From: Devosia oryziradicis
GTDB taxonomy: Bacteria; Pseudomonadota; Alphaproteobacteria; Rhizobiales; Devosiaceae
NCBI RefSeq assembly: GCF_016698645.1
Contig: NZ_CP068047.1
Location: 1,647,001-1,711,000 of the forward strand
Length of the DNA stretch: 64,000 bases
Reading direction: 5' to 3'
The notes under the pieces are model-generated. The model saw only the letters and a list, made by a program, of their open reading frames with translations, ran no database searches and was not told the origin of the DNA. Shown here in pieces: positions 1,436 through 62,392 of the stretch (position 1 is its first letter; every line of letters begins with the position of its first letter). Both the position numbers and the translations under genes were made by a program.

Positions 1436-3433
1436 ATGAAACCCATGTTGGTCCCCAACGGGGGCAGTATCACCCATCTCGGCGCCACGGTGACCGAGGT
1501 GGGTGTCAACTTTGCCGTCTATTCGGAAAGTGCCACCAACATCTGGGTGTCGATCTTCGACGAGACCGACCAGGAAACAGATCGGTTCGAGCTGGACGTC
1601 CGCCAGGACAATATCTTCGCCGGCCTGGTTTCCGGCCTGGGCGTGGGCACGCGCTATGGGCTGCGCGCCGATGGTCCGTATGATCCGGACCAGGGCTATT
1701 TCTTTGATCCGATGAAGCTGCTGGTCGATCCCTATGCCAAGCGGCTCGACCGTGTCTTCGTGCGCTCGCCCCGTTTGCGGCTGGATCGCTCGGAGGCGGT
1801 GGATACCGCGCCGCTGATCCCCAAGGCCATCGTCGTCGGCCTTGGAAACGAGAACATCCTGCCGCGCAAGAAGGCGCCTGGGATGTTCTACGAGATGAAC
1901 GTGCGTGGCTACACCATGCGTCATCCCGGCGTGCAGGGGCCGTTGCGCGGCACCATTGCGGCGCTGACGACGCAGCGGGTGATCGACCACCTGAAATATA
2001 TCGGCGTCGACACCCTGCAACTGATGCCGACTGCCGCCTGGATCGACGAGGGCCACCTCCCCGTACTGGGCCTGACCAATGCCTGGGGATACAATCCGGT
2101 GGCCTACTCGGCGGTCGACCCACGCCTGGCGCCGCGCGGACCGCAGGAACTGCGGAACATGACCGATCTCTATCGCAAGAACGGCATCTCGGTGATCCTG
2201 GACGTGGTGTACAACCACACCGGCGAAAGCGACGCCAATGGCCCGATGCTCAGCCTGATGGGGCTCGACGCCAAGACCTATTACCGGTTCGTCGAAGTCG
2301 ACGGCAAGCAGCACCTGGTCAACGATACGGGCACGGGCAATACGCTGCGCTGCGATCACCCGGCCACGCAGCGGCTGGTCATCGATTCCTTGCGCTACTG
2401 GGTCGAGGAAATGGGCGTCTCCGGCTTCCGCTTCGACCTGGCGACAGTGCTCGGCCGTGACCCGGGCTTCAACCCGAATGCCGAAATGCTGCAGAAGATC
2501 AAGGCGGACCCGGTGCTCAAGCAGTGCATCCTGGTCGCCGAACCCTGGGATCCGGGTCCGGGTGGCTATGGACTGGGCCAGTTCGGCAAGGAGTTTAAGG
2601 AGCACAACGACACCTATCGCGACGAAATTCGCGAGTTCTGGCGCGGCGAGAACGGCAAGATCGGCGCGCTGGCCGGCAAGGTTGCAGGGTCGGCCGAAAT
2701 CTTCAATTTCGCAGGCCGCAAGCCGAGCCACGGTGTCAATCTGCTGGCCGTGCATGATGGTTTCACGCTGCGCGACCTGGTGAGCTACCAGGACAAGCAC
2801 AACGACGCCAACGGCGAAGGGAACCGGGACGGCCACAATCACAACGCGTCGTGGAATTGCGGTGTCGAGGGCGAGACCGACGACCCCGGCATTATCGCGG
2901 CGCGAAAGCGCGACGTTCGTGCCATGCTGGCGACGCTGCTGCTGTCCCGGGGCGTGCCGCTGCTGCAGCAGGGCGACGAGATGTATCGGACCCAGCACGG
3001 CAACAACAATGCCTATGCCCAGGACAATGAAATCACCTGGGTCGACTGGGAAGGTGCCGATGGAGACCTCGTCGACTTCGTGGCGGCGATGTCCAAGTTC
3101 CGCAAGGCCCACGTGGCATTGACACATGACCACTTCCTGTCCGGCCAGGACAAGGCCGGTATCCGGGACGTGGTCTGGCTGCACCCTGACGGTCGCGAGA
3201 TGAACGAAGGTGACTGGAACGATTCCGGCGCCTCGGTGCTTGGCATGCACCTCCGGCACAAGGATGACGAGGTCCTGGTCTGGTTCAACCGGCGGGTCGA
3301 GCCGGTGGTGGCAAGGTTGCCCGAAGGCGGCTGGCAGGTCGGAATCCTGTCCGAAGCCACCGCCAGTGTCCCCGTCGCGGATGGCACTGCGACACTGTCG
3401 CCTCGCTCGGTCATTGCCCTCGTGCGGGCATGA
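1436..3433 (+). CDS. glgX: Glycogen debranching enzyme GlgX
   Basis: GH13 isoamylase-type enzyme that hydrolyses alpha-1,6 branches in phosphorylase-trimmed glycogen. An N-terminal CBM48-like beta domain precedes the TIM barrel. All four conserved GH13 regions are visible: DVVYNHT near residue 255, FRFDLA with the nucleophile Asp near 331, VAEPWD with the acid Glu near 366, and AVHDGFTL near 438. The frame stays open upstream into pgm. I chose the ATG at 1436 because it lies just after the pgm stop, has a weak GGAAAA upstream and gives a normal N-terminus. The product is about 665 residues. Its last bases overlap the next gene by ATGA. Confidence 0.93.
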   Translation: MKPMLVPNGGSITHLGATVTEVGVNFAVYSESATNIWVSIFDETDQETDRFELDVRQDNIFAGLVSGLGVGTRYGLRADGPYDPDQGYFFDPMKLLVDPYAKRLDRVFVRSPRLRLDRSEAVDTAPLIPKAIVVGLGNENILPRKKAPGMFYEMNVRGYTMRHPGVQGPLRGTIAALTTQRVIDHLKYIGVDTLQLMPTAAWIDEGHLPVLGLTNAWGYNPVAYSAVDPRLAPRGPQELRNMTDLYRKNGISVILDVVYNHTGESDANGPMLSLMGLDAKTYYRFVEVDGKQHLVNDTGTGNTLRCDHPATQRLVIDSLRYWVEEMGVSGFRFDLATVLGRDPGFNPNAEMLQKIKADPVLKQCILVAEPWDPGPGGYGLGQFGKEFKEHNDTYRDEIREFWRGENGKIGALAGKVAGSAEIFNFAGRKPSHGVNLLAVHDGFTLRDLVSYQDKHNDANGEGNRDGHNHNASWNCGVEGETDDPGIIAARKRDVRAMLATLLLSRGVPLLQQGDEMYRTQHGNNNAYAQDNEITWVDWEGADGDLVDFVAAMSKFRKAHVALTHDHFLSGQDKAGIRDVVWLHPDGREMNEGDWNDSGASVLGMHLRHKDDEVLVWFNRRVEPVVARLPEGGWQVGILSEATASVPVADGTATLSPRSVIALVRA

Positions 3434-4158
3434 TCGTCGGACAGCTCAGTGACATCCACGCCGATGGCAGCGCCGAAGCGCTGCAACGGCTGGATGTGGT
3501 GCTGGGCTGGCTGGGACCGCTGCGACCCGACGCAGTCATTGTCAGTGGCGACCTGGCGGAGTCCGATCATCAGCGCAGCTATCGCGCGGTGCGCCAACGG
3601 CTGGAGAACCTCGGCGCACCGTTCTTCGTGGTGCCCGGCAATATGGACGACCACGGCCTCATGATGGAGGCATTCGGCGATCTTTACGGTTGGTCCAGCC
3701 CGCGGCCACTCAATGTCGTTGGTTCGCTGCGTGACCTGCGCCTCATCGGGCTCGACGTGACCGTGTCCGGTGCGCACCATGGCGATGCGCGCCCCGTGCT
3801 GGATTGGCTGTCACGGGAACTCAATTCGGACGACCCCCCAGCACTGATCTTTCAGCATCAGCACCCTTTCAAAACCGGCATCGACGGCAAGGACCGCAAT
3901 ATCTGCTTTGGCGGCGACGAACTTGCCAGGGTGATCGAGAATGCCCGCAGTCCCGTCATTGCGCTGACTTGTGGTCACGTGCACCGGCCCATGTTTACAC
4001 GCTTCGCTGAACGCCCAGCCACTATGGCCCCGTCCGTGGCACGCGCGAACCGGCTGCGACTTGACGGTCGGGAGAGCAATATCAGCGACCCCCCCGGCTT
4101 GCTGGTCCACCACTGGTCTGAGGGCCGCCTGGTCAGCCATGCGGTGGCGGTGCACTAA
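3430..4158 (+). CDS. Metallophosphoesterase, CpdA-like
   Basis: Calcineurin-like phosphoesterase of about 242 residues. The metal ligand motifs of the family appear in order: an N-terminal GQLSDIHADG (DxH), VSGDLAES (GDxxE/D-like), a GNMDDH motif (GNHD equivalent), and a late CGHVHRP (GHxH). This resembles cyclic-AMP phosphodiesterase CpdA and related class III nucleotide phosphodiesterases. The substrate cannot be deduced. It starts in a four-base ATGA overlap with glgX, so it is probably translated from the same message. Its stop overlaps the stop of the convergent acetyltransferase gene. Confidence 0.82.
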   Translation: MIVGQLSDIHADGSAEALQRLDVVLGWLGPLRPDAVIVSGDLAESDHQRSYRAVRQRLENLGAPFFVVPGNMDDHGLMMEAFGDLYGWSSPRPLNVVGSLRDLRLIGLDVTVSGAHHGDARPVLDWLSRELNSDDPPALIFQHQHPFKTGIDGKDRNICFGGDELARVIENARSPVIALTCGHVHRPMFTRFAERPATMAPSVARANRLRLDGRESNISDPPGLLVHHWSEGRLVSHAVAVH

Positions 4159-49752: not shown

Positions 49753-50838
49753 CTAAATTCCCTCGTCGTAAAACGCTGTCATGGCCGTCGCAAACCAAAA
49801 CAGCTGGTCTTCGGAGAAATCATCGCGAACCCAGTCGGGAAGGCTGTTCCTGGGAAACTGCAGCTTGGCCAACGATGCTGAAAGCCTCAGAAGGCGCGCA
49901 TTGATGCGCGCTTCGATACCGGCCTCTTCTATACCGCCACTTAGGGCCTTTGACAGAGCAAGTAATATTTCTAGAAAGACATGCTTGGCAGTTTCGACAG
50001 CATTCGGCTGTCCAATGAATGACCAGAATTCGCGGCCGATGCATCGATAGACGCGGATAGACCTAGTCGCGCTGTCTATGAGAATTCCGGGCTTGTTCCC
50101 CGGATCCTCTTCAACGAATCCCTGGTCAAGAAGTTTTATAAGTATTTGATTTTCTTTATTATTTGTGGTTTTGTCGGTTCCGTACGTAAGTCCTAATACT
50201 ATGTCAAGACTGGTAACATTTGGATAAGTATTTTTTGTCTCGGTCATCCATGTTTTGTGGTTCGTCACTATAGCTGTGGTCATCCCGGCGACTTGCGTGT
50301 CGTTGATTGTGTTCGGGCCACTCTTGATTGAAGTAATAAAGCGGCGGCTGCCAACCACGCATGATCGGTCGATTTCGCGCCACACTGACCCGACGCGCTT
50401 TTGAGCCCGCGCTTCGCGATCCAACCCTGCAAGTGCGGCGAACTCTGCTACCTTTTCCGGTGCATCGGTCCACCTATGGTCGGCAATCAAAGGGTACTGG
50501 CCTACAAAAGCAGCTTCGATCTGTTTACCGAACGAAGTCTCCAATGCCATGTAGAGCTTGCTATTAAAGAGAAAGTCGCCGAACTTTGCTGGGTCCGACA
50601 AACCCATCACGCTCGCGGACGTCATCAAAACGTATGGATTTGTTCTGTAGTCGGACAAACCCTCGCGCTTTTCGAAGGCCGCGGGTAGATTGGTGCTTAT
50701 GTATCCTCGAAGCGAGTTACTGAGAGCATCCACCCGGCCTTCGTCCACCAACTTGAAAAGTGCGACGATCTCGGCAGTGTCAAAGACGTGTCGTCTCGAC
50801 CTTAGTGCATTGGAAAAAGGTAAAGCTCCTCTCGCCAT
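49753..50838 (-). CDS. Candidate type II restriction endonuclease
   Basis: 361 residues, no signal peptide. The central motif FITSIKSGPNTINDTQVAGM (about 157-176) resembles the (I/L)KSGPxTIN core of TdeIII/PmeII-type restriction enzymes, with an upstream ETSFGKQIEAAF helix. Lower GC content than the neighbours. It starts five bases after the stop of a C5-cytosine methyltransferase gene on the same strand, which is the strongest argument that it is the cognate nuclease. ATG 50838 is chosen; a TTG at 50847 overlaps the methyltransferase stop. The recognition site cannot be read from the sequence. Confidence 0.68.
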   Translation of the reverse strand: MARGALPFSNALRSRRHVFDTAEIVALFKLVDEGRVDALSNSLRGYISTNLPAAFEKREGLSDYRTNPYVLMTSASVMGLSDPAKFGDFLFNSKLYMALETSFGKQIEAAFVGQYPLIADHRWTDAPEKVAEFAALAGLDREARAQKRVGSVWREIDRSCVVGSRRFITSIKSGPNTINDTQVAGMTTAIVTNHKTWMTETKNTYPNVTSLDIVLGLTYGTDKTTNNKENQILIKLLDQGFVEEDPGNKPGILIDSATRSIRVYRCIGREFWSFIGQPNAVETAKHVFLEILLALSKALSGGIEEAGIEARINARLLRLSASLAKLQFPRNSLPDWVRDDFSEDQLFWFATAMTAFYDEGI

Positions 50839-50843
50839 ATCTT

Positions 50844-52184
50844 TCAACCTATCGCTGACACACGGCGTACCGTTTGAGGTGGCTCGTACGAAACCCCATT
50901 ATTGACGCCCCCATCTTCCCAAACCATTGTTTTGCCGGCCTTATACCACTGCCTAGTTCGTACGTGAGATTGGACGTAGACTATCCGAAACTCCTTTGGC
51001 GGAGCCTCCACTTTCCAATTTTTTGTAGCTAGACGGTCGAAAGCGCCGGCGACAACATTGCCAGCGACTCTCCCAAGTCTTACTGGAACTGCGTTTCCGA
51101 CCTGAGCGTACTGTTGCGCCGCAGTGCCTGAAAACTCCCAATCTTGTGGGAACTCCTGAATGGCGGCGTATTCTCGGAGCGTAAGCGCCCTTAGCTCCGT
51201 TGGATGGCAGAGAGACGTGCTAGCGTGGTTGGGCATAGTTACCAGCGTGGGGCTGGGCAAATCGAAATTAAGCCGCCGCCACCAACCTGATCGCCCTCCT
51301 TTTGCGTGCCACGCTTTGCCCATAGAGAGTCTCTGCAGTTCTTCAGGGAGACTTCTCCAGTTCGATCCCGGCGGAACTTCCTTCAAGAAAGACTTCTTGC
51401 GATCGCTGAAATCCATAATAACGTCACCAACGTCGGTCAGGCCGCCTATAGCGTCCCTGAGCGTTCTCCAGGGAAGTAGCGACGTATCGTCGTCAAAAAG
51501 AGTTGACTCTTCTATCCGCTCTGGTCCGTGGGTGGGGTCAGGAAATTCGGTTACTTCACCATACCTATTGCCGATGAATATCACTCTCTCGCGCAATTGA
51601 GGGGCGCCATAGTTCACGGCGTTTACTTCGAAGCAGTCCATATGATATGGCGTCTGTAGTTTACGCAGGTCATCAGCAAACAGTCTGACCACCGAGCCAG
51701 GTAGTTCATCCGGCGCAAGTTCAGAATCCTTCCGATTAGCGATGGGTCGATGCCGCAACGCGGCGGACAGCAGGCCTCTCACGTTCTCGATAATGAAGAA
51801 TTTGGGCTGCAAGGCCTCCACGAACCGTAGAAAATCCCAGAGCAGCGTTCCCCTGGGATCTTGTACCGTTCCTCGTCGCCCAGCTGTGCTGAATGACTGG
51901 CACGGGGGGCCGCCGACAATGAGGTCAATTTCTCCCGGCTTGATGCCACAGCGCTTCATCACTAGTTGAGGATCTAGTGATGACATGTCCGCCTCGAACA
52001 CCTGTAGGTTCTTGCTTAGCCTGCCCTTCGTTTGATTGAGACGTATCGTGTCGCAGAAGGCGCGTTCCTTTTCGACACATGCAATTAGCTCAAACCGGCC
52101 GGTGCTCTCCAACCCAAGATCGAGGCCCATCGCGCCTGAAAACAGAGACAGAACGGTATATTTTTGGGGCAAGGCGCGACTCAC
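50844..52184 (-). CDS. DNA (cytosine-5-)-methyltransferase, Dcm family
   Basis: 446 residues. C5 motifs in order: I VLSLFSGAMGLDLGLE (11-26), IV GGPPCQSFSTAGRRG with catalytic Cys95, VI IIENVRG (131-137), VIII GAPQLRERVIFIGNR, and X YAQVGNAVPVRLG. The target-recognition region lies between motif VIII and IX (about 215-330). Protects self DNA from the adjacent candidate nuclease. GTG start at 52184 without a clear ribosome site. GC content is visibly lower than in flanking core genes, a sign of horizontal transfer. Confidence 0.93.
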   Translation of the reverse strand: MSRALPQKYTVLSLFSGAMGLDLGLESTGRFELIACVEKERAFCDTIRLNQTKGRLSKNLQVFEADMSSLDPQLVMKRCGIKPGEIDLIVGGPPCQSFSTAGRRGTVQDPRGTLLWDFLRFVEALQPKFFIIENVRGLLSAALRHRPIANRKDSELAPDELPGSVVRLFADDLRKLQTPYHMDCFEVNAVNYGAPQLRERVIFIGNRYGEVTEFPDPTHGPERIEESTLFDDDTSLLPWRTLRDAIGGLTDVGDVIMDFSDRKKSFLKEVPPGSNWRSLPEELQRLSMGKAWHAKGGRSGWWRRLNFDLPSPTLVTMPNHASTSLCHPTELRALTLREYAAIQEFPQDWEFSGTAAQQYAQVGNAVPVRLGRVAGNVVAGAFDRLATKNWKVEAPPKEFRIVYVQSHVRTRQWYKAGKTMVWEDGGVNNGVSYEPPQTVRRVSAIG

Positions 52185-52312: not shown

Positions 52313-54907
<2,595 letters not shown>

Positions 54908-55420: not shown

Positions 55421-56170
55421 ATGTCGATAGAGCGCACTTCCGTGGAAATGCTCCTCCAGCCGTTTTTCCGCAAGATGCAGATCCGCGACAAGCTGGGGAT
55501 CGAGGAGCAGCAGGCGCTGGCCGCCGCTGCGGACCAACGTCTCGACTTCACCCAGGGGCAGGACCTGGTGAAGGAGGGCGACCGCCCGACGCGGAGCATG
55601 CTGGTGACCAATGGCTTCACCTGCCGCTACGGCGTGGCGCCCGGCGGCGACCGGCAGATCACCGCCATCCACCTGCCCGGTGATTTCGTCGACCTGCACA
55701 GTTTCCTGCTCAAGGAAATGGACCATTCGGTCGGTGCGCTCACCGACTGCAAGGTCATCACTTTCCCGCACGAGAACCTGGTGCGGGTAACCGAGCGCTT
55801 TCCGCACCTGACGCGCCTCCTGTGGCTGATGACCCTCTTGGACGGGGCGATCCACCGCGAATGGCTGCTGGGCATGGGGCGCCTGTCGGCACCGCAGCGG
55901 ACGGCGCACCGCATTTGCGAAACCTATACCAGGCTCAACGCCCTGGGACTGGCGGAGAACCACCGCTTCGTCTTCCCCATTACCCAGGCGGCGCTGGCCG
56001 ATGCGGTGGGCATCACGCCGGTGCATGTCAATCGTGTGCTGCAGGATCTGCGGCAGCGCGGCCTGATCGGCTGGGACAAGGGCATGATGGAAATCCGCGA
56101 CTGGAACACGCTGGCGCGTGAGGCCCAGTTCGACAACCTCTACCTTCATCTTGTGGAAGAGCCCCGCTGA
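55421..56170 (+). CDS. Crp/Fnr-family transcriptional regulator
   Basis: 249 residues: N-terminal cyclic-nucleotide-binding-like barrel (VKEGDRPTRSMLVTNGFTCRYGVAPGGDRQITAIHLPGDFVDLHSFLLKEMDHSV) and C-terminal helix-turn-helix (TQAALADAVGITPVHVNRVLQDLRQRGLIGWDKGMMEI). No four-cysteine cluster of Fnr is present, and the barrel differs from true Crp, so the signal is unknown. Starts behind GATGAGGTC. Its stop overlaps the next gene's start (TGATG). Confidence 0.9.
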   Translation: MSIERTSVEMLLQPFFRKMQIRDKLGIEEQQALAAAADQRLDFTQGQDLVKEGDRPTRSMLVTNGFTCRYGVAPGGDRQITAIHLPGDFVDLHSFLLKEMDHSVGALTDCKVITFPHENLVRVTERFPHLTRLLWLMTLLDGAIHREWLLGMGRLSAPQRTAHRICETYTRLNALGLAENHRFVFPITQAALADAVGITPVHVNRVLQDLRQRGLIGWDKGMMEIRDWNTLAREAQFDNLYLHLVEEPR

Positions 56171-56409
56171 TGCCGCACTATTTCTTCGATATCCACGACG
56201 GCGAGGGCGTATTTACCGACGAGGTGGGCATGGACCTGCCCGACATGGATACGGCGATCCGCGAGGCCCGGCGCGCCCTGGCCGACATGGTCCGCGACGC
56301 GCTGCGCGACCAGGACGGCGCCAAGGTGCTGATCTGCATCCGCGACGGCGCCGACGGACCTGTCATGCTCTCGGTATCGCTGACCACCGACCGGCCAAAC
56401 GGGGGATAG
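56170..56409 (+). CDS. DUF6894-like small protein
   Basis: 79 residues beginning MPHYFFDIHDGEGVFTDEVG and containing DMDTAIREARRALADMVRDAL. The PxYFFDihdG start and central Ala-rich helix fit the DUF6894 family found next to regulators in Hyphomicrobiales. Function unknown. Starts in a one-base overlap with the Crp/Fnr stop, so it is co-expressed with it. Confidence 0.78.
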   Translation: MPHYFFDIHDGEGVFTDEVGMDLPDMDTAIREARRALADMVRDALRDQDGAKVLICIRDGADGPVMLSVSLTTDRPNGG

Positions 56410-56411
56410 GC

Positions 56412-57008
56412 TCAGCGCGGAATGAAGTAGCGGGTTTGGCCGTCAAGCTGACCGGAGCGCGCGAGGCCGATGGTGGTGAGGGTTTGCAGCAGGGTTTCGA
56501 TGCGGTCGCGGCGCTTGGGCGTGTTGCGGCCATCGAAGGTGGCGGAGAGGGATTCCGTCGGGACCGGGGCGGGGGCCTTGCGGAGGAGGTCGACGAGGAT
56601 GTTGATCTGCTCGGTATCGCTCGTGGGCCATTTGGGCTTGTCGCTTGATGGGACGATGGCGAGATCGGCTTCCTGCTGCACGCCGTCGGGGCGGGCGACT
56701 TTGTGGCCCAGCTTGGGGATCTGGTAATCGGGGCGGAGCCAGCGGACGAGGCCGCGGGCTTCCTCGGCTGCGCGTTCCTGGTTGAGGGCGACGAGGCGGG
56801 TCAGCAGCTCGTCCTCGGCGGCCATTTGGTCGTCGGTCTTGTAGGGGCTGGGCGTGGTGGCACCGGGGCGGCCGACGAGGCGCGGGGCGAGGTCGGACCA
56901 GCCATAGGCGGCAAAGACGAGCGTGTCGATCTCGTCGTAGATATCCCTCAGGATGGCGATGTGACCGGCGTCGTAGATGTCGCGTTCCTTGTCGGAAAGC
57001 GGTTCGAT
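56412..57008 (-). pseudogene. C-terminal remnant of an MmeI-like restriction-methyltransferase gene
   Basis: In one minus-strand frame from 57008 to 56412 the sequence encodes IEPLSDKERDIYDAGHIAIL, then RDIYDEIDTLVFAAYGW, SDLAPRLVGRPG and, from the ATG at 56825, the last 137 residues, ending in QTRYFIPR. YDEIDxxVFxAYGW and LVALNxERAxEEARGLVRWLRP are typical of the C-terminus of MmeI-like/class I DNA methyltransferases. An in-frame stop at 57009-57011 precedes it and the catalytic body is absent. The matching N-terminus is at 59520-60213. The short ORF from 56825 could still be translated. Confidence 0.82.
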
Positions 57009-57019
57009 CTAATGACGTA

Positions 57020-57940
57020 TCAGTCGCTCCTTCGGGGTGCGTAGTCTAGGTTTGGGAGCATGAACGCGGGCGACGCCGCGTCCCATTCCAACCGACGTGT
57101 CACACGGGAGAGATCAGGTGCACTCACGACGAATCGTTCGTCGTAGCGGGCAAAGAGCGTGTCGAAGAACCCACCCAATACGAGGGGGCTGTCGGGGAAG
57201 GGGAAACTATCAAGCAAGGTACTGCGCTGTGACCCATGCATCTCGACCAGACCAAAGCCAATTGCCTCATATCGGCTGACATCGTTACGTATGCCACGGC
57301 GGCCAACCAGTTCACGAAGGGCGTTATGAAAACGCACAATACCGGCTACCGGCTCGCCGCCTTCGGTCATGGCGATATCATTGGCGGCCAAAGTTTTGGT
57401 GCCTTCTGAAGCGTCGTCCATTCCAGGCGAAGCTTCAGCCGCGTCGTTGAACGCGGTTTCAACGAGGCGATTTGCGCGGAGGAGCACGAGGTAGCCTAGC
57501 ACGAGGGCCGGATAGGTGATGTGCAAATTGGTGCACTCACCTATCGTTTCCTCCATGCGGTTGGTGAGGTTGCGAAATGCTCCAGTTACGCCCTTGCAGG
57601 AGACCGCAAGTACGGGCCCAATCCCATCCTTGGTCACGACGACGTCAACGTTCTTGGTTTTCAAACCGCCGAGAACTGTGCGCTCGCCCCCGCCCGCCAT
57701 GGAAGGGTCGTAGTGAAGTACCGGTGCGCGGCCTGACCGGCGTTCTACGCGGAACGGCGGGCGCGGAACGATATCGTCTGGATCAAAGCCGCCTTCGAGC
57801 ACGAGCCTACATGCGACATGCCAATGCAGCGGCTTAATATGGTTGGCACTCTGGGTTTTGCCGGTGAACTCAGCAAACGCCGCCAAGGCCTCAGACTGGC
57901 TAGTCCACTGGCAGCTCTTTGTGTCTACGTCAGTCGCCAT
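57020..57940 (-). CDS. Candidate restriction endonuclease of the inserted R-M pair
   Basis: 306 residues. Possible PD-(D/E)xK core: Asp99 in TKNVDVVVTKDG and, after a strand, LAVSCKG with Lys116, where Ser replaces the usual Glu/Asp, followed by GAFRNLTNRMEE. It overlaps the methyltransferase gene by 11 bases, and GGAGG four bases before the ATG at 57940 fixes the start. Context, size and the motif make it the probable nuclease partner. I cannot place it in a named family. Lower GC content than the flanks. Confidence 0.65.
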   Translation of the reverse strand: MATDVDTKSCQWTSQSEALAAFAEFTGKTQSANHIKPLHWHVACRLVLEGGFDPDDIVPRPPFRVERRSGRAPVLHYDPSMAGGGERTVLGGLKTKNVDVVVTKDGIGPVLAVSCKGVTGAFRNLTNRMEETIGECTNLHITYPALVLGYLVLLRANRLVETAFNDAAEASPGMDDASEGTKTLAANDIAMTEGGEPVAGIVRFHNALRELVGRRGIRNDVSRYEAIGFGLVEMHGSQRSTLLDSFPFPDSPLVLGGFFDTLFARYDERFVVSAPDLSRVTRRLEWDAASPAFMLPNLDYAPRRSD

Positions 57941-59408
57941 AGTGCCTCCAGCGGTGGAGAGTCTTGACCGCGTCTTCCAATGCCTCTTTATTCGCCTCCC
58001 CAGTCGCATTGTCCGAAGGAAAGAGAATGCGGCTCGCTTCCCCTGGCTCAAGTTTCAACATGCCACCACCGAGAGCGTGACCTTCGAGCTCACAACTTAG
58101 TCGGAGGAAAGGTGTTGACCACTGTGGGAACAATTTCCTTGCCAGAGCTTTGTCACGCACGCGAACTGAATGAACGCTGTTTGTGCAAGTTACGCCAGCC
58201 AAATTCTGCACCAAGTTTGCCGCTCGGCCGGACATGTAGCTCAGCATGAAGTCGGGAATCTGCACGTCGGGAACGGCATACCAAGGGGTGCGATTTCGAC
58301 ACTTATAACCGAGTCTGGCTTCACGCCCGGCGCCGCTGTCGAGATACGCTTGCACACTGGTCGGAAGATCCTGCCCGCGATTTAGGCGAAGCAACAGAAC
58401 TTTCTCGTCAGCCTTCGTCCAAGATTCCACAGTCGCCGCTGTTATCTGGCTGGCAGGCATAACCCGGCCACTACGCAGGCTAGGATGGAGGAGTTCAGTT
58501 GGAATTTTCCAACGATTCACTTCGGAGGGGCGGAGGTGAAAAAAGTCGTTGTCGCCGCTAACGTAGCCAATGCCTACGGTAGCAAAATCGCCAAGCCGCC
58601 TGCTCGCAGAATCCTTAGATGCGGCCGCATAGATATCGCGAATTTCTCGTGGCAACAGGTATGCACGCAGCCGCCGCGCCCACACGGCGCGCCATTCATG
58701 AACATCGATTTGGACCGTGGGTCTTGGCCGATGCCTGCTAGGCTTAAATTCGTCACAGACAGTAAAATCGATATGCGTCGTGGAGCCGCCCTGCCCCTCC
58801 GCATAGAGCAACCAGCAATCCTCGGAAAGTTGGGGAAACAGCTTGTTCCGGATCGCAATGATCTGCACCCCAGAAAACGAACTCACCAGGTATTCCAACA
58901 GTGGCGCCGCATATGGAGCATGCCCAATTTCGGCTGGCACCACAAACGCCATGCGGCCGCCCGGTTTCAGTAAAGCGGCCGTCGCGACGAGGAAAGGTGC
59001 CCACGATGATGCTAAACCCGAGAACGGTGCGCCATGACGAGCGCATAGATTCAGAGCGCGGCGCCGAACCTCACCTTTGAAACTCTGGTAGCGAATGAAC
59101 GGTGGGTTTCCTGCTGCACATTCAAAGCGCTCGTTCGTTTCGCCGGCCCATGCAAAAAAGTCGCCCTTGTGAACAAGGGCAGACGGCGCAACACTAATTG
59201 CAGCTTGTGCAGAAACGGGATTCTGCTCAATGCCCACAGAATTGGGGTGAGCTGAAAGAAACTGCCCATCACCACAAGACGGATCAAGTAGCCTGTCTGT
59301 AGGCTTTCGGAGCGCCCACGAAACTAGCGATTGGGCGACGTCGTGAGGAGTGAAATAGGCACCCGATTGTTTTTGATCAGAAATCGGCGGCTCATCGTCT
59401 AGCATCAC
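57930..59408 (-). CDS. N6-adenine DNA methyltransferase, gamma class (TaqI-like)
   Basis: 492 residues. Motif X GAYFTPHDVAQSLVSWAL (16-33), motif I LLDPSCGDGQFL (40-51), and motif IV NPPFIRYQ (101-108), the (N/D)PP(Y/F) catalytic loop. A C-terminal TaqI-like recognition domain follows from about residue 245. This architecture matches M.TaqI and related enzymes that methylate adenine. It precedes and overlaps the candidate nuclease gene. Base composition differs from the surrounding core genes. Confidence 0.9.
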   Translation of the reverse strand: MMLDDEPPISDQKQSGAYFTPHDVAQSLVSWALRKPTDRLLDPSCGDGQFLSAHPNSVGIEQNPVSAQAAISVAPSALVHKGDFFAWAGETNERFECAAGNPPFIRYQSFKGEVRRRALNLCARHGAPFSGLASSWAPFLVATAALLKPGGRMAFVVPAEIGHAPYAAPLLEYLVSSFSGVQIIAIRNKLFPQLSEDCWLLYAEGQGGSTTHIDFTVCDEFKPSRHRPRPTVQIDVHEWRAVWARRLRAYLLPREIRDIYAAASKDSASRRLGDFATVGIGYVSGDNDFFHLRPSEVNRWKIPTELLHPSLRSGRVMPASQITAATVESWTKADEKVLLLRLNRGQDLPTSVQAYLDSGAGREARLGYKCRNRTPWYAVPDVQIPDFMLSYMSGRAANLVQNLAGVTCTNSVHSVRVRDKALARKLFPQWSTPFLRLSCELEGHALGGGMLKLEPGEASRILFPSDNATGEANKEALEDAVKTLHRWRHYGD

Positions 59409-59519
59409 GTCCCCCTAGCTCAAGCGTGTAGTAGTTCTAACCGTGCTCCACACGCTCCTTAGTCAGAACATACCAGGAACGTCGGTTGTGTAAACTGGGT
59501 ACTTGGCTTGCTTGAGATC

Positions 59520-60213
59520 GCGAGCTTCCTGCCCTCCAGGCGCTGATGATGGACAGGCGGCCGGCAATGTCGCGGGTGACTTCGGCGGATTTCTTGGCTG
59601 GGTCGAGGCTGTGCGGAAAGGTCCAGACGGCCTTGAGGCGGGCCTGGATGGCGGGGTCGCGCAGGTGGTCCATCTCGATGCGGAAGCCCTGCGCATCGGG
59701 GAACTGGGCGTAGTTCTTGCCCTGGCCGGAAAAGTCGGCATAGAGCTCGATGACGTGGCCGACATCGACCAGGATGACGAAGGGCGGGTAGCCGTGTTCT
59801 ACCGGCAGGTGGCGGGTGTAGTCGACGGCCTGGGTATAGGCGGCGCGCATGACGCGGTCCCAGCCGCGCGAGCCACGGCGGGCGTGGCCGAGCTTGCGGG
59901 ACTGGGCCTCGGAGCCGAAGAGGCTGGCCTGGCGCTCGTCCTCGGCCTGGCGGCGGGCGGATTGCTTGGCTTCGAGCACGAAGCTGCCGCGCTTGTAGCA
60001 ATCGACATAGAGCTTGGTGGTGGAGCCGTCGGGATGGCGATAATCGAGGCTGCGCTCGAAGACGTAGTCGTTGCGGGCGTTGGCTTCCTGGCTCATGGCG
60101 GGGCGGGGTACGCCCAACACGTCACAAAGGCCGGTGACAAAGAGCTGGTAATTGGCGCGTTCGGAGCCGCCCGAGGCGGTGGCTTCGGCGATCAGGTCAT
60201 CAAGTGTCGTCAA
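59520..60213 (-). pseudogene. N-terminal remnant of an MmeI-like restriction-methyltransferase gene
   Basis: From a TTG at 60213 (GGGAGG ten bases upstream) the minus strand encodes about 228 residues of an MmeI-type N-terminus: LFVTGLCDVLGVPRP, YRHPDGSTTKLYVDCYKRGS, then FVLEAKQSARRQ, which gives D-x9-E-x-K exactly as in MmeI nucleases, and PPFVILVDVGHVIELYADF. Homology ends near 59520 (TRDIAGRLSII); the frame runs on to 59437 with unrelated residues. The helicase-like, methyltransferase and recognition domains are gone. The C-terminal end of the same gene is at 56412-57008. Confidence 0.85.
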
Positions 60214-60355
60214 TCGCCGGCGGCCTCCCCACGGGCGACACTATTGCCGCAGGTTGGCGGGGGAGGGAAGGGGGATGCCGCTCGCGTGCCTGTGTTCGCG
60301 GTGGACTGGGCGGTCTGGTTGAGTTTTTGGCGCTTTGAGACTATAGGCTTGCGCC

Positions 60356-62381
<2,026 letters not shown>

Positions 62382-62392
<11 letters not shown>

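Follow-up and report, generated by a model that had tools for sequence, protein, structure and literature searches.

Why do two pieces resembling the opposite ends of an MmeI-like restriction-modification (RM) gene stand on either side of another RM system in the genome of Devosia oryziradicis? The locus occupies positions 56412-60213 of the window, a stretch of 64,000 nucleotides (assembly GCF_016698645.1, contig NZ_CP068047.1, positions 1,647,001 to 1,711,000 of the forward strand), to which all coordinates given here refer. Read 5' to 3' on the minus strand, it consists of an N-terminal piece of the MmeI-like gene, a methyltransferase gene (M), a probable nuclease gene (R), and a C-terminal piece of the MmeI-like gene. 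The arrangement is very probably the outcome of a nested replacement, in which the core of the MmeI-like gene gave way to a Type II RM unit of two genes and of foreign origin, and one case of a recurrent process. The parts of the locus are:

59530..60213, minus strand: N-terminal remnant of the MmeI-like Type IIG/IIL gene, with the nuclease domain and the part following it (Pfam, PADLOC, DNA alignment)
57930..59408, minus strand: M, gamma-class adenine methyltransferase (M.TaqI, Pfam, and PADLOC matches)
57020..57940, minus strand: R, 306 amino acids, probable Type II restriction endonuclease (homologues, conserved residues)
57011..59529, no strand assigned: replacement segment of 2519 bp, GC content 56.4%, without match to intact MmeI-like genes
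56412..57010, minus strand: remnant of the other, C-terminal end of this MmeI-like gene, with an open frame of 198 codons after the TAG that marks the joint

Two ends of one gene and the unit between them

The original prediction, made from the sequence of the window, held that both outer pieces come from a single MmeI-like gene, and the searches bear this out. Both pieces match one PADLOC profile, PDLC03627 (Type IIG, 1136 positions), the N piece at positions 3-219 (E 2.9e-74) and the C piece at positions 969-1128 (E 1.1e-38), and they are the sole two matches of this profile in their own genome at E 0.001. The N piece also contains the Pfam domain MmeI_N (PF20464, E 1.1e-17); a Pfam search of the C piece gave nothing at E 0.1. 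Both pieces are colinear in DNA alignment with an intact MmeI-like gene of 1203 codons in a congener, genome G004. Window positions 59530-60204 correspond to nucleotides 22-700 of the 3612 nucleotides of this gene (88.3% DNA identity), and positions 56402-57010 to nucleotides 3014-3610 (85.9%). Alignments with G060, G100, and G075 agree with this picture, and the DNA match to G075 reaches position 60278, about 65 bp upstream of the N reading frame. That the fragments belong to different proteins, or are independent complete genes, is ruled out by their colinearity with one gene, which forms one open frame in ten genomes of the family.

Between the two ends, 2313 bp, equal to 771 codons, of the MmeI-like gene are missing, and 2519 bp stand instead. 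In the intact relative from G075, the missing part comprises the spacer, the methyltransferase, and the target recognition domain (TRD), as identified by Pfam. The earlier estimate of about 500 missing residues was thus too low. The loss of 2313 bp rules out a simple insertion, and the outcome is correctly described as a replacement that left a nuclease domain without its methyltransferase, which lies within the missing 771 codons. The D-x9-E-x-K motif of the nuclease domain, predicted to be intact, is present in the N piece as DCYKRGSFVLEAK, starting at residue 71. In MmeI, the corresponding residues are D70, E80, and K82 (PMC4833311). The N piece resembles MmeI, an enzyme of Type IIL, which is a subgroup of Type IIG, in having MmeI_N and an N-terminal PD-(D/E)XK nuclease domain with this motif. 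The intact relatives share with MmeI the whole series of MmeI_N, spacer, methyltransferase, and TRD; in contrast, the helical spacer, gamma-methyltransferase, and TRD that an MmeI-type enzyme combines in one chain are absent from the window.

The C-side joint is at position 57010, directly past R, the stop codon of which occupies 57020-57022, and is marked by a TAG. The limit of 57008 originally proposed on this side stands; the range of 59440-59520 proposed on the N side is about 10 bp or more off, as the joint is at about 59530. In-frame homology of the N piece extends over 59545-60213 (223 codons). A deletion of 4 nucleotides after 59545 shifts the frame, and the open reading frame runs on to 59437 (258 amino acids), its last 35 residues being out of frame or unrelated. 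A search for short homologies at the joints found one shared 8-mer; at least one is shared in 39% of random stretch pairs, so that there is no repeat beyond chance. No target duplication is present, the remnants covering separate parts of the gene.

Both M and R are complete open reading frames in the same orientation, as had been predicted for a gamma-methyltransferase and a candidate nuclease. M matches M.TaqI (E 1.4e-10), the Pfam families Eco57I, M_Eco57I_C, and N6_Mtase, and the PADLOC profile PDLC03267 (E 6.3e-91), and carries the motifs of its class, with NPPF in the translation. Its likelier start on reading the sequence is the ATG at 59405, which has AGGGGG before it. The start ATG of R overlaps the stop codon of M, and coupled translation is suggested by this overlap. 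R has 2653 homologues; among the 120 matches listed, the named ones are hypothetical proteins, except for the cluster P0109, which bears the UniRef name Restriction endonuclease. In an alignment of 38 proteins of the R family, D99, S114, E130, and E131 are invariant, and K116 is nearly so; the spacing of these residues is presumably that of PD-(D/E)XK enzymes with an acidic residue on a helix. The restriction-enzyme profiles PDLC03540 and PDLC03558 match 27 and 17 of the 38 members, respectively, with a best E value of 4.2e-6. Judged by its sequence family, R is probably a nuclease.

The M-R pair is a standing unit. M is positioned directly upstream of R in 31 of 32 R loci, a count in which only part of M was matched at L040, M is 30% identical at L041, and L050 has part of R and no M. 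R or a part of it was found on 18 plasmids, at least 80% of R on eight of them, and 12 of the 18 are typed as conjugative; none was found in phage records. R is present in three of the 136 family genomes examined. In the congener G039, its coordinates are identical to those on the plasmid CP104975 of Devosia sp. A8/3-2. The replacement segment looks foreign in composition. Its GC content is 56.4%, compared to 66.7% in the C remnant and 66.1% in the N remnant, and the GC content at third codon positions is 55.4% in M and 64.5% in R, compared to 85-89% in the remnants, uvrB, and ygiQ.

Recurrence in the family and the uvrB-DoxX interval

An independent case, with both ends of an old gene around an RM gene, is present at the uvrB locus of the congener G073. 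The MmeI-like gene there is a different one, 82-84% identical to that of G040 and, in its N part, 52% identical to the G004 type; it has kept residues 18-416 and about 1031-1176. The gap holds one gene on the same strand, encoding 529 amino acids with N6_N4 methylase and Mrr nuclease domains, which at E 1e-60 has no match in the other genomes of the 136. A partial case comes from G097, which belongs to another genus. In this genome, a Type ISP gene, split in two open reading frames, abuts a surviving C-terminus of MmeI-like type, which corresponds to residues 992-1193 of the G075 protein, and no MmeI-like N-terminus was found in the 26 kb around the locus.

The pattern is recurrent in the family. 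Loci of at least about 45% identity were counted in the 136 genomes, 32 of which have a match; the 17 with only weaker, more distant matches were left out. Ten of the resulting 15 family loci are intact (G075, G004, G109, G060, G100, G099, G051, G120, G098, and G040) and one is frameshifted (G016). Both ends surround an RM gene in the genome of the window (G000) and in G073, a C-terminal piece alone lies by an RM gene in G097, and G076 has an N-terminal piece alone. An RM gene therefore stands in or at a broken MmeI-like gene in three of the 15 loci. No further pair of N and C pieces flanking an insert was found in 397 order-level and 385 class-level genomes, a survey that scored no more than two candidates in each genome; with its limits, 1e-20 and 1e-25, a C piece matching no better than the one in G073 (8.9e-15) would be missed.

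Other incomplete genes were examined and set aside. The C-terminal pieces of G353, G261, and G466 and the N-terminal pieces of G076 and G856 have no adjoining RM gene, as read from open reading frames by eye, without a profile scan. The partial genes of G402 and G268 lie at contig edges, and the match in G233 covers residues 14-835 only. The lone C-terminal piece of G353 (L127, 4036-4905) lies between phage terminase-like and portal-like genes, both labelled by eye. The gene near uvrB in G016 (L012/L121) consists of three colinear pieces in different frames and is either a decaying copy or affected by sequence errors. In G045 (L116, uvrB-left 913-1986), an HNH nuclease gene adjoins an MmeI-like gene of which 28 C-terminal residues are left, which is suggestive of another eviction; this locus is not counted among the cases. 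Separate N pieces of 402-410 amino acids and C pieces of 217-250 amino acids were also seen in P0242/P0140, P0325/P0185, and P0280/P0170. Of four N pieces that were read, three, namely P0242, P0280, and P0247, end at most about 25 residues past the motif IIEPL. P0242/P0140 and the two further pairs probably each lie on one metagenome contig, as the longest contigs of both members are equal in length, and all three could be further core losses.

The surroundings of the chimeric locus contain the following features:

52313..54907, minus strand: uvrB, conserved anchor of the variable interval that holds the chimera
55421..56409, plus strand: Crp-family regulator and DUF6894 gene, neighbours within the interval
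60356..62392, plus strand: YgiQ-type radical SAM gene, local neighbour

The region upstream of uvrB was examined in the window and in 40 further genomes, out of 68 that have a match to uvrB. In 21 of these 41 regions, the stretch contained a DoxX-type gene, at a distance from uvrB of 218 bp to 12.3 kb. The uvrB-DoxX interval holds MmeI-like genes or pieces in the window, in G075 and G040 (both intact), in G016 (frameshifted), in G073 (replaced), and in G045 (28 residues). The intact G075 protein has 73% amino-acid identity to that of G004. In G099, of another genus, the MmeI-like gene adjoins uvrB in the opposite orientation. The copy of G004, which is the nearest relative by sequence with an intact gene, lies near lepA and not near uvrB; therefore, the MmeI-like gene also moves. 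Matches to the start of YgiQ were found in three of 75 genus genomes, and in the two others, G028 and G075, the match to the window does not continue upstream of YgiQ. The Crp, DUF6894, and YgiQ genes are local neighbours only, and the expectation of an intact copy between DUF6894 and YgiQ in relatives was not borne out, since the intact copies sit in the uvrB-DoxX interval, beside uvrB, or elsewhere.

A second RM pair lies across uvrB, at 49753-52184 on the minus strand, where a C5-cytosine methyltransferase gene (PF00145) overlaps an EcoO109I-like endonuclease gene (PF14511, E 4.9e-8). It is located in the 2-kb step of the window with the lowest GC content (52.4%), and uvrB thus has RM genes on both flanks. 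No literature on a defence hotspot at uvrB was found.

Proposed course of the replacement and probable fate of the remnants

The anatomy of the locus, the homology of its parts, the foreign composition, and the recurrence are direct observations, and the following course of events would account for them. A resident MmeI-like Type IIG/IIL enzyme of one polypeptide would have been encoded in the variable interval by uvrB. A foreign M-R unit would have entered its gene in the same orientation, with loss of the spacer, methyltransferase, and TRD. We infer joining by double-strand-break repair or another illegitimate route. The M-R unit is probably the present working system, in which M would methylate the site and R would cut unmodified DNA.

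Alternatively, an internal deletion of the MmeI-like gene could have come first and the insertion of M-R later. Broken genes without an adjoining RM gene do exist, namely the frameshifted copy of G016, the N-terminal pieces of G076 and G856, and the C-terminal pieces of G353, G261, and G466. However, in both genomes in which both ends survive, G000 and G073, these ends enclose RM genes of like orientation, and none of the 15 family loci showed N and C ends separated by an empty deletion. Such a course in two steps is possible and rather unlikely. An assembly chimera or misjoined contigs are scarcely conceivable, as nothing was found in favour of them; the genome of the window is one contig (98.53% complete, 0.07% contamination), as is G073, and the pattern is repeated in that independent genome. 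Several findings weigh against the proposed displacement by a foreign, working unit. The copy of G004 lies near lepA, so that the state before the replacement is not seen with the window's own neighbours. The closest cassette among 12 loci compared by DNA (L019) has 73.7% identity and does not show the original ends of the incoming segment. Low GC content is not confined to the cassette: 10 of 246 segments of 2.5 kb equal it or fall below it. The joints, having no repeat beyond chance, do not demonstrate the route of joining. The R of the window itself matches PDLC03540 weakly (E 0.0026), its Pfam scan gave no solid match, all being below thresholds, and sequence searches found no solved structure related to it; the activities of M and R are predictions.

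The remnants could also belong to a working operon of four pieces, in which the N (258 amino acids) or C fragment, or both, are kept as accessory subunits of the M-R pair. All four pieces share one strand, and the D-x9-E-x-K motif is intact. Compared to G004, the ratio of nonsynonymous to synonymous rates (dN/dS) of the N remnant is 0.137 with the shifted tail and about 0.10 without it (dN 0.048, dS 0.49), and that of the C remnant is 0.130. The in-frame N part shows no clear excess of amino-acid change, with nonsynonymous to synonymous counts of 4:17 on the window branch and 3:22 on the G004 branch. Nevertheless, these low rates are explained by a recent event without selection, and amino-acid change tends to be more frequent in the C piece (12.7:20.3 on the window branch, 3.5:17.5 on the G004 branch; Fisher p 0.14 on rounded counts). 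The N piece has a frameshifted tail, and the C piece stands behind the TAG at the joint. Furthermore, none of the 32 other M-R loci has MmeI-like pieces beside M-R in the DNA examined, up to 8 kb per side. A four-piece operon is accordingly very improbable.

The replacement of the MmeI-like core is likely to be recent, because both remnants are still open, and the substitution rates fit this; they would also be compatible with continued use of the N piece. In MmeI, the nuclease domain is joined through the spacer to the site-binding methyltransferase and TRD (PMC4833311), so that an active free N fragment is unlikely. The remnants are most likely debris, because a nuclease domain without TRD and methyltransferase has nothing to direct it to a site.

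One-chain enzymes may be readily replaced, because methylation, cutting, and specificity vanish together and no free nuclease is left to kill the cell. The idea builds on post-segregational killing by RM systems (PMC3031569). It is tentatively suggested, and still doubtful, that MmeI-like genes are sockets for incoming RM systems, in which a break disarms the resident at once without self-killing and the newcomer takes over its transcription unit. In the window and in G097, the C-side joint lies within one short linker ahead of the C-terminal domain (the alignments start at amino acids 995 and 992 of the G075 protein), which would make the linker between domains a preferred joint; the joint of G073 lies farther on, at about amino acid 1031 of the G040 protein. 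The shared position in two of three cases was noticed post hoc, in a variable linker, and the joint of G097 is uncertain by some residues.

Relation to known systems and meaning

The M-R unit is presumably akin to Type II M-R pairs like those of XhoI and PaeR7I. As in these pairs, a gamma-methyltransferase is followed by a protein resembling the REase_II profiles PDLC03540 and PDLC03558, and one of the 38 R relatives weakly reaches Pfam XhoI (E 0.039). Unlike in these pairs, the R of the window, with 306 amino acids, remains below Pfam thresholds. Nobusato in 2000 and Furuta in 2010 reportedly described RM units that insert with a long duplication of the target, and rearrangements linked to RM genes. 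The RM unit of the window would likewise be a mobile unit, but its target is another RM gene, the core of which was deleted, and there is no target duplication. That RM genes behave as mobile units, entering genomes and rearranging them, is also described in PMC3031569. Mobility, insertion, and rearrangement by RM units are thus already known; the repeated replacement of an MmeI-like core at one locus was not found described. Specifically, literature listings and the beginnings of abstracts contained no report of unrelated RM systems replacing the core of an MmeI-like gene repeatedly at one locus.

Defence islands and hotspots beside core genes are a general phenomenon. The variable interval of the window, next to a core gene, takes up defence genes in the same manner, while the specific site, from uvrB to DoxX in this genus, differs. 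RM systems are regarded as competitors for hosts that resist being replaced. In this case, related genomes allow the states before and after a replacement to be read, on two occasions at a single locus and with challengers unrelated to each other. Two questions thereby become testable: are Type IIG enzymes of one chain more easily evicted than systems of two genes, and does the newcomer draw its expression from the vacated gene? The turnover of bacterial immune genes becomes directly readable at this locus.

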